From: Nanobdellota archaeon
Lineage (GTDB): Archaea; Nanobdellota; Nanobdellia; Parvarchaeales; Parvarchaeaceae
Length of the DNA stretch: 34,785 nt
Assembly (NCBI GenBank): GCA_021851145.1
Contig: JAJZJK010000005.1
Span: forward strand, 1 to 34,785
Reading direction: 5' to 3'
Under the pieces are notes generated by a model that was given only the letters and a program-made list of their open reading frames with translations, did not search any database and was not told the origin of the DNA. Every line of letters starts with the position of its first letter. Position 1 is the stretch's first letter. Shown one piece after another: positions 6,687-34,497 of this stretch. Made by a program: the position numbers and the translations under genes.

Positions 6687-6968
6687 GCGGTATTGAATAG
6701 CCCGTTTTTTGTCATCCCTCAGCTTTAGTTCAAAAGCTTCTCAGTTGGATGTAACAACATTCGACTAAGCGCCGGAATACCGGTTTGCACCGTGAAGGTC
6801 TGCCGTTTCATCCTCTTTTCAGCAATCAGCTTTCGCATCATATCTTTGCACTGAAAACAGGTATCGTTTCTGCTCAGTTGCCTGCCTTTTACAGCAATGC
6901 ATTACTGCACTTCAATTTTAAAGGTGAACGGACTTCCTCCTTTAATGGTCTGTTGCATACAATACCGC
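6687..6968 (-). ncRNA. rnpB: RNase P RNA
   Basis: Reverse strand has GGAGGAAGTCCGTTCACC (CR-I) and GATGACAAAAAACGGGCTAT (CR-V); P4 AGTCCG/CGGGCT pairs; termini form perfect P1 GCGGTATTG/CAATACCGC; GCAGAAACGATACC inside. Confidence 0.88.
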
Positions 6969-31658: not shown

Positions 31659-31859
31659 TTACTTCTTACCCTCTTTTTTCTTTGAAAAATCTATTGTAAC
31701 CTTTCCAGATAATTTGATTGGCTCTTTTATACTTGGAAGCTTTATCTCTAGATTATCAAGATCAAGTGAAAACCGCTTATTTCTGCCACCAATCATCCCT
31801 AATAGCATCTGTGGAAGCATTCCAAACAGTTTGTTATTTCCATCTTCTTTCTTTTCCAT
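31659..31859 (-). CDS. Small hypothetical protein, paralogue of 31952-32176
   Basis: MEKKED...FSLDLDNLEIKLPSIKEPIKLSGKVTIDFSKKKE. Confidence 0.75.
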   Translation of the reverse strand: MEKKEDGNNKLFGMLPQMLLGMIGGRNKRFSLDLDNLEIKLPSIKEPIKLSGKVTIDFSKKKEGKK

Positions 31860-31951: not shown

Positions 31952-32176
31952 TTACTGTTTTTTGTTGCTGTCTTCTTTATTCTTACCGGAAAAATCTAAA
32001 TCAATTTTTGCGGAAAGCTTTACTGGATACTTCAAACCTGACATGTTTATCTCCAACTTATCTAGATTTATTGAAACTTTCCTAGGCTTGGATTTTTGCT
32101 CATTCATGTTATCTTTGATTACCTTAGCTATCCCAGTTATTGCGTCGTAAATGGCGTTGTCTTCTTTCTTTTCCAT
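31952..32176 (-). CDS. Small hypothetical protein, paralogue of 31659-31859
   Basis: MEKKED...VSINLDKLEINMSGLKYPVKLSAKIDLDFSGKNKE. Confidence 0.75.
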   Translation of the reverse strand: MEKKEDNAIYDAITGIAKVIKDNMNEQKSKPRKVSINLDKLEINMSGLKYPVKLSAKIDLDFSGKNKEDSNKKQ

Positions 32177-32350: not shown

Positions 32351-32445
32351 CGTCAGGGATGGGGGTTGAACCCATTAAGGCTTGCGCCAACATGCTTTCC
32401 GTTACTGGATAGCAGGCATGCACCTTACCGTTCGGTCACCCTGAC
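32351..32445 (-). tRNA. tRNA-Ser(GCT) with probable 13-nt anticodon-loop intron (about 32397-32409)
   Basis: Acceptor GTCAGGG/CCCTGAC, G73; T arm ATGGG-TTCAACC-CCCAT; long variable arm; anticodon stem CATGC/GCATG encloses 20 nt CTGCTA-[TCCAGTAACGGAA]-A. Confidence 0.85.
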
Positions 32446-32533
32446 TTATTACAGATTAGAGTAACTAATCTATTTTAACTTATTGCTAATATAATTTTAT
32501 ACTAGTATTAATCTAAAAAATATCTTACTAAAT

Positions 32534-32796
32534 GACAGGCCATGGCTTCGAAATAGCTATCCATATAGAGAGTAACAACATTTTCTCCTTACAGTTTACC
32601 TACAAGCACGCTTCAGCTTAATTACAGTTGCTCCCTTCCGGGCCTGGCTGGGTTCTTAAACCAAAGCATCCTATAGGGCTGTAAATCTACGATAGCTTTG
32701 TTACTATGTATAGAGTCACTATCCCTCGGCCACGGTTCACTGCGCCTAAAGTCCATTTGCGCTGCAGGGAGGGACTAACTCCCCAGCTAGCCTGTC
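32534..32796 (-). ncRNA. Signal recognition particle (7S) RNA
   Basis: Helix 8 signature CCAGGCCCGGAAGGGAGCAACTG (32625-32648 on -); termini pair GACAGGC/GCCTGTC; TATA-like ttctataaag upstream. Confidence 0.92.
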
Positions 32797-32996
32797 AAAT
32801 ATTAGCTAATCTTTATAGAATAAATAGATATTACTGCTGACAGATGAAAAACGCATAAAGTATTTATTGCTTATTGCATTCGCAAGCAGCGTTGTTTAGC
32901 CATTTAAAATAGAGTGTAACCTTGTAGGTAGTACTTCTGCATATAATTTAAAAACATATAATTATTTATCACAGTGGTATTCATACTAAAAGTTAT

Positions 32997-33189
32997 GTGC
33001 CACAGGCCGATAATTCCCCTTGTAAAGTAGGATCCAAAAAAATATTGATCATAATGTTCCTAATAGGATTGGCTTCATCCATATTAGGTTGCATTGTCAT
33101 CAAAAATGACTGCAAAAAAGGTGCTTAGTATATTCATACGGCTTTTGTTTGGCATATTCATGTTTGGCTATCTACTAATTCTAGGATAA
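32997..33189 (+). pseudogene. Frameshifted small two-TM protein gene (43-aa ORF from GTG overlapping 27-aa ORF from ATG 33106)
   Basis: MPQADNSPCKVGSKKILIIMFLIGLASSILGCIVIKNDCKKGA* and MTAKKVLSIFIRLLFGIFMFGYLLILG*; dropping one A from AAAAAA (33114-33119) joins the frames. Confidence 0.45.
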
Positions 33190-33229
33190 GAAAAGATATC
33201 CTTTCAAGTTCAGCCGCTTAAAATCTTAT

Positions 33230-33871
33230 TTATTCTTTGGAAGACTTTGCATATAGCTTTAAGGGTATGGACTTGTCAATATACAATGTGTTGTCTGTCT
33301 CTGAAAGCAGGTTTCCTGATTTAATTTCTTTGCTTTTGAATAAACCTTTTTTATTTATTTCCTTCAATGAATAATTTGCGTTTGTATCGAATTCTGCTTT
33401 CACATTATTATCATAAATAAGTGTAAGCTCTAGCAAATTTTTTGCTGGTTTGTATTTTAAGCTTATTTGAGAGGTGTGCATATTCATATCACTATCCAAA
33501 GAATAAAACTCAATAGGCACATTCACTCCAGACTGGATAAATTTTATACTTTTGCTGTCTTTATTTTCTAGCCTGCCGGCAATAATATTGTCTGAATCTA
33601 GAAAGTTACGTATATTCGTTAAGTGATCGTCTATTTTGCCGTTACTTACAATGGGCTTAAAATAAGCAAAGTCACTTTTTATCTCAAATAAAATATTGCT
33701 GTTTGTCTTATCTCTATAAAGGGTAACCTCTAACATTCTTTTATGGCCTTTTTTTGTTACCATAAACTGCCCTGGAAACATGTCTGGCATGTCAAAAAAA
33801 TCTACTTCATCTCTATCATTGATGGGAAGCTCCCCCATATCAAGTATTATCTCGGTTAAATTAGGTGTCAT
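33230..33871 (-). CDS. Hypothetical protein
   Basis: 213-aa ORF with ATG, no recognised domain. Confidence 0.65.
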   Translation of the reverse strand: MTPNLTEIILDMGELPINDRDEVDFFDMPDMFPGQFMVTKKGHKRMLEVTLYRDKTNSNILFEIKSDFAYFKPIVSNGKIDDHLTNIRNFLDSDNIIAGRLENKDSKSIKFIQSGVNVPIEFYSLDSDMNMHTSQISLKYKPAKNLLELTLIYDNNVKAEFDTNANYSLKEINKKGLFKSKEIKSGNLLSETDNTLYIDKSIPLKLYAKSSKE

Positions 33872-33993
33872 TTATTTTTAATGAATAATACTATTATTAA
33901 TAGCTTCTCACTAAATAACTGGGAATTCCCAGTCTTTCACATGCTCATCTTTCTGCCCAAGATCTTTTTCTAGTTCAACCCTCTTTTCTATTG

Positions 33994-34050
33994 AGGCAAC
34001 TAAATCCCCAGCTAGCCTGTCAAATATAATTCTGATTCTGATAGGTTAAA
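33994..34050 (-). repeat. Degenerate partial duplicate of the SRP RNA 5' end and promoter
   Basis: 34005-34027 tccccagctagcctgtcaaatat equals 32780-32802 exactly; flanks gagg.actaa and TATA side weakly similar. Confidence 0.75.
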
Positions 34051-34131
34051 TAATTTTATGATTAGAAATTAAATTGATAGACAAAACTACAATTTAATAA
34101 AATTTAAGGATATTTATTTAAAAATATAATT

Positions 34132-34497
34132 TTAAAATCTCTTGAGAAAGGGTATAAATTGATCCAAGTCTTCAGCCAAATCTACACTCATTTTTTCATA
34201 TCCCTTTATGGCTTCTTTCCCTCTCTCAGTTATCCTGTACTGCTTTCTCGCTTTTTCCCCTTTATTTCCCTTGTTTACCGCTTCTATGTACCCAGAACTT
34301 TCCAACTGTGAAAGAGAAGGATAAACTGCTGCTGGCCCAGGCCTCCACATGCCATCAGTCTTTTCGAATATCTGTTCCATTATCTCAAAGCCATGCATTG
34401 GCTTATCCATTAATAATCTTAACATAAATGGTTGAAGCAGGCCTTTTGGGATAATATCAACATTAAAAGGCCCGCAGCGGCAACGTCTGCCTCTCAT
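34132..34497 (-). CDS. PadR family transcriptional regulator
   Basis: LQPFMLRLLMDKPMHGFEIMEQIFEKTDGMWRPGPAAVYPSLSQLESSGYIEA...KQYRITERGKEAI. Confidence 0.95.
   Translation of the reverse strand: MRGRRCRCGPFNVDIIPKGLLQPFMLRLLMDKPMHGFEIMEQIFEKTDGMWRPGPAAVYPSLSQLESSGYIEAVNKGNKGEKARKQYRITERGKEAIKGYEKMSVDLAEDLDQFIPFLKRF

Follow-up and report, generated by a model that had tools for sequence, protein, structure and literature searches.

A fragment of the SRP RNA gene at the breakpoint of a truncated ppsA in a small archaeal genome

The locus and its direct repeat

The window, as the whole stretch of 34,785 nucleotides analysed here is called, belongs to the genome of a tiny acid-mine archaeon (G000), an incomplete MAG (63%) of 588 kb in 50 contigs. 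Besides an intact SRP RNA gene, it contains a second copy of the promoter and extreme 5' end of that gene. The features of the locus are as follows:

32533..32797, minus strand: intact SRP RNA gene (copy 1), a full-length match to Rfam RF01857 at 112.4 bits
32798..32833, minus strand: promoter of the intact SRP gene, with a TATA-like TATTTA at 32821-32826, from SRP upstream regions aligned across 10 genomes
33088..33218, plus strand: remnant of a VKOR gene, from tblastn with the VKOR of G018 and G013 and from blastn segments
33230..33871, minus strand: 213-aa ORF, directly downstream of ppsA in G018 also (88% aa)
33911..34003, minus strand: ppsA remnant, the last 30 codons and stop (LVASIEKRVELEKDLGQKDEHVKDWEFPVI*), matching the ppsA C-terminus of G018 at 97% aa identity
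33999..34008, minus strand: junction inside GGGAxTTAGT, from side-by-side sequences of SRP RNA and ppsA
34005..34022, minus strand: copy 2 of the SRP RNA start (18 nt), without difference from copy 1 in the alignment
34023..34058, minus strand: second SRP promoter (copy 2), with a TATA-like TATTTA at 34047-34052, from sequence comparison with G009 and copy 1
34132..34497, minus strand: PadR regulator (Pfam PF03551), directly upstream of ppsA in G009 and G003

A sequence-only reading of this DNA had pointed to an exact 23-nt block present in the same orientation at 32780-32802 and 34005-34027, and this was confirmed; the chance expectation is nil (0 in 100 shuffles), and the repeat grows to 29 nt with 28 of 29 positions matching (32774-32802 and 33999-34027), the two copies being spaced 1,225 nt from start to start. 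These are the only two occurrences in the whole assembly when searched with an 18-nt core and up to two mismatches, and no match to the 23-mer was found in viral contigs. As had been proposed, copy 1 of the block comprises the 5' terminus of the SRP RNA, placed by Rfam at 32797 (-), together with its upstream edge; 18 nt of the block lie within the RNA and 5 nt upstream of it.

The weaker similarity said to extend into the promoter is also real, copy 2 aligning with the local SRP gene over 54 nt at 81% in a DNA search and with the SRP promoter and 5' end of the relative G009 over 60 nt at 88%. In total, the similarity covers about 54-60 nt and includes the SRP promoter with its TATA box, a TATTTA-type element that is conserved about 24-25 nt upstream of the SRP RNA in the alignment of 10 genomes. 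In the other direction less was found than the ~10 nt of inward similarity that had been described: copy 2 is not SRP-like past TTAGT, and the 3' end of ppsA lies there instead. RF01857 has a single match in the window and the full SRP RNA fold is absent from copy 2, which holds only 18-24 nt of the RNA.

Gene order in relatives and the bracketed DNA

Read on the minus strand, copy 2 runs on into an open frame (...GDLVASIEKRVELEKDLGQKDEHVKDWEFPVI*) which, on its sequence identity, is the C-terminus of phosphoenolpyruvate (PEP) synthase, ppsA. It is 97% identical to the ppsA end of G018, a Candidatus Parvarchaeota MAG closely related to the window, and 45-84% identical to those of other relatives, whose full-length ppsA carries the Pfam domains PPDK_N, PEP-utilizers and PEP-utilizers_C. 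About 758 of the 788 codons, roughly 2.27 kb, are missing where copy 2 sits, and a search of the G000 assembly found no further ppsA sequence. Between the remnant and G018 there are five synonymous and no nonsynonymous differences, suggesting that coding constraint was lost only recently, if at all.

The order of genes in relatives shows what the locus formerly looked like. On its minus strand G009 has DUF5320, PadR, ppsA (a frame of 802 codons), SRP RNA, tRNA-Ser and L10e; G003 has DUF5320-PadR-ppsA and then the contig ends; G013 has ppsA, VKOR on the opposite strand, SRP RNA and L10e; and G018 has ppsA, the 213-aa ORF and VKOR, with the 3' end of ppsA intact and the repeat absent. In the window the order is DUF5320-PadR, copy 2, 30 codons of ppsA, the 213-aa ORF, the VKOR remnant, SRP RNA, tRNA-Ser and L10e. 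The parental order was thus DUF5320-PadR-ppsA-(VKOR)-SRP, with a single SRP copy, and the body of ppsA has gone from it; by comparison with these sequences, the DNA bracketed by the repeats is native to the locus. G018 itself differs near the SRP gene, its likeness to the window ending about 108 nt short of where the SRP RNA is expected, with other sequence instead (G018:C39, 3567-3860), which is either a rearrangement or a misjoin in a low-coverage contig.

The two genes between the repeats had been described as an orphan ORF and a broken small membrane gene. The latter is indeed broken, and was identified as VKOR by tblastn with the G018 and G013 proteins, intact relatives matching Pfam PF07884; relative to G018 it has suffered three internal deletions. 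The 213-aa ORF, however, is no orphan, having relatives in 8 of the 37 genomes searched (its own genome counted), all within the genus. A scan of contigs with this ORF matched G018 as the sole record, and neither Pfam, PHROGs nor PDB sequences gave a convincing match to its family. The family also includes longer paralogues of 240-283 aa.

Direct repeats of 29 nt which bracket 1.2 kb, one of them where a conserved RNA gene begins, bear a likeness to the attL and attR ends of an integrative element in an RNA gene, and att-like ends of an element integrated at the SRP RNA gene had been suggested. We rejected this interpretation, to which we attach only a very small residual probability. The ppsA 3' end and VKOR belong to this locus in G009, G013 and G018, the two repeats carry different promoters, and no integrase, transposase or other recombinase was found with Pfam among window ORFs of about 110 aa and upwards and the neighbours of the repeat. 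The comparison with sister genomes that had been proposed as a check also went against an element, since G018 carries the 213-aa ORF without the repeat. Nothing relevant on archaeal integrases that use SRP RNA genes turned up in a literature search.

A functional role for copy 2, either as an SRP-like small RNA or as a captured strong promoter driving the ppsA remnant and the 213-aa ORF, might be read from the TATA-like box lying at the SRP spacing. However, this is very hard to credit: there is no SRP fold past 18 nt, the fold of the presumed chimeric transcript is not notable (z-score -1.7), the spacer between ppsA and the 213-aa ORF, with any promoter that the ORF possesses, is nearly unchanged from G018, and copy 2 is conserved in no relative. 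The SRP piece is without evident function and is at most an SRP-type promoter reading into the remnant.

The junction and the source of the SRP piece

Copy 2 (34005-34027) is the breakpoint at which the ppsA body is missing and not the border of an insertion. The suggestion that the repeat is a relic of a segmental duplication holds in part, in so far as a duplicated SRP 5' segment is present. The SRP 5' end and the 30th-last codon of ppsA lie apart in relatives, whilst here they are joined at a shared GGGAxTTAGT, a motif common to the SRP RNA (GGGAGTTAGT) and ppsA (GGGAGTTAGT in G009, GGGAATTAGT in G018). When the SRP RNA (GGGGAGTTAGTCCC), the junction (GGGGATTTAGTTGCC) and ppsA from G009 (AGGGAGTTAGTTGC) and G018 (AGGGAATTAGTTGC) are placed side by side, the change-over falls within the 10 nt common to SRP and the G009-type ppsA; one junction base (T) comes from neither known parent.

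The promoter of copy 2 matches that of the G009 SRP gene at 32 of 36 positions and that of the local copy 1 at 26 of 37, a comparison that covers only 36 positions. A promoter so diverged next to so fresh a ppsA remnant argues that the SRP piece is no recent copy of the local gene. Copy 2 probably derives from a second SRP haplotype, that of another strain, brought in either in the cell or in the assembly, although confidence in this is moderate as the numbers compared are small. The stretch from PadR to the copy 2 promoter (34059-34132) aligned no better than shuffles with the ppsA-SRP spacer of G009 or with PadR-ppsA spacers, and shows no significant similarity to the copy 1 upstream region, 15% of shuffles scoring as well in local alignment. 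As it resembles none of the spacers compared, the second breakpoint is placed inexactly.

These comparisons bear on the idea of an old tandem duplication of a 1,225-bp unit bounded by the GGGAGTTAGT motifs in ppsA and SRP, in which the upstream copy would later have been deleted with the ppsA body and both promoters would descend from one ancestor. The 1,225-nt spacing and the motif shared at the junction are the leftovers expected of such an event. However, the promoters match at only 26/37, 34059-34132 does not significantly resemble the copy 1 upstream region, and an old truncation should show nonsynonymous change, of which the ppsA remnant has none; we consider this origin improbable. Slighter still is the chance that a 1,225-bp circle comprising the ppsA tail, the 213-aa ORF, VKOR and the SRP 5' end was formed by a join of the GGGAGTTAGT motifs of ppsA and SRP and entered, through homologous recombination, the SRP 5' end in a strain where PadR adjoins SRP. 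A circle would explain how the repeats share the RNA part yet carry different promoters and, if true, would mean that DNA was integrated without an integrase at the RNA gene of a DPANN archaeon.

Between G000 and G018 there is a mosaic of near-identical and diverged stretches, with 63 differences clustered within 832 columns; the three longest identical runs have P of about 0.0002 against shuffled positions. This fits strain exchange or mixed strains, and uneven constraint along the ORF could contribute.

Rearrangement in the cell or chimera in the assembly

The explanation that we favour, at about even odds, is that copy 2 is a rearrangement scar and that the join was made in the cell. In the parental locus PadR precedes ppsA, with VKOR (and the 213-aa ORF in this lineage) and then the SRP RNA gene further on. 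Here about 2.27 kb of ppsA is missing, and the space from PadR to the last 30 ppsA codons is taken by an SRP promoter and the opening ~18 nt of the SRP RNA, which meet ppsA within the 10-nt motif common to both genes (GGGAGTTAGT). So much is shown by the sequences; we infer that microhomology-mediated or homologous recombination in the cell made the join, using a diverged second SRP haplotype such as that of a co-occurring strain in which PadR adjoins SRP. A haplotype of this kind was not seen in any genome examined.

Several observations favour a real junction. The parts brought together were already neighbours in the ancestor, with matching order and strand, an outcome not expected of a random misjoin; VKOR, at the same locus, is short of three segments; and an overlap of 10 nt cannot cause a k-mer join. 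The motif shared at the junction, the lack of nonsynonymous change in the ppsA remnant and the likeness of the copy 2 promoter to that of G009 count for it as well. The mosaic identity of G000 and G018 fits recombination between lineages. The arrangement resembles scars of the MMEJ/MMBIR type, with a templated or foreign insert, in having a short piece from elsewhere, a short shared motif and an adjoining deletion. However, the promoter of the insert is unlike that of the local source gene, so that it was not simply copied, and an origin in the cell is putative.

The principal competitor, to which we assign a probability somewhat short of even, is a chimera of two strain haplotypes produced in the assembly or the library. 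Strain A would have PadR followed by the SRP gene and strain B ppsA-213-VKOR-SRP; the contig of strain A would have stopped just inside the conserved SRP gene and been joined to B via the short shared motif, through overlap joining in scaffolding or a chimeric molecule. The locus shares with MAG contig misjoins and strain chimeras a position near a contig end (the junction is 755 nt from it), a conserved RNA gene where the contigs of sister genomes break, and strain mosaicism. Contigs of G001, G002 and G003 (G001:C21, G002:C17 and G003:C34) end inside the SRP RNA gene, those of G002 and G003 at the same base, which suggests that the SRP RNA is a recurrent assembly break point in the genus. The junction is found in this genome alone among the 28 genus genomes searched, coverage of the contig from the sister MAG G018 is 1.86, and a chimera would also suit both the G000/G018 mosaic and promoters too diverged for a recent copy beside a ppsA remnant that is fresh. 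However, the pieces are ancestral neighbours in the correct orientation, the PadR-SRP haplotype must still exist, and an overlap of 10 nt falls far short of what a k-mer join requires, so that a chimeric read or overlap-based scaffolding is needed.

The case has little significance beyond this locus. If the join is real, the lineage recently lost PEP synthase via a rearrangement that drew on SRP promoter DNA from a different haplotype. This enzyme and PEP carboxykinase have been reported in Parvarchaeota from acid mine drainage, as a proposed link between pyruvate and the TCA cycle (PMC5864196). If it is instead a product of assembly, SRP RNA genes are break and misjoin points in strain-mixed archaeal MAGs, and the absence of ppsA should not be inferred from this assembly.

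Some other features of the window may be recorded. The tRNA at 32351-32445 (-) was detected by Rfam and missed by ARAGORN; judged by eye, it resembles a tRNA-Ser (GCT) whose anticodon loop is interrupted by an intron. Two neighbouring small ORFs of 66 and 74 aa (31659-31859 and 31952-32176, minus strand) have a common start, MEKKED..., and a common start region of 25 nt, and are probably tandem paralogues. Compared with the Rfam model, the archaeal RNase P RNA at 6687-6968 (-) has about 36 additional nt close to its 3' end.
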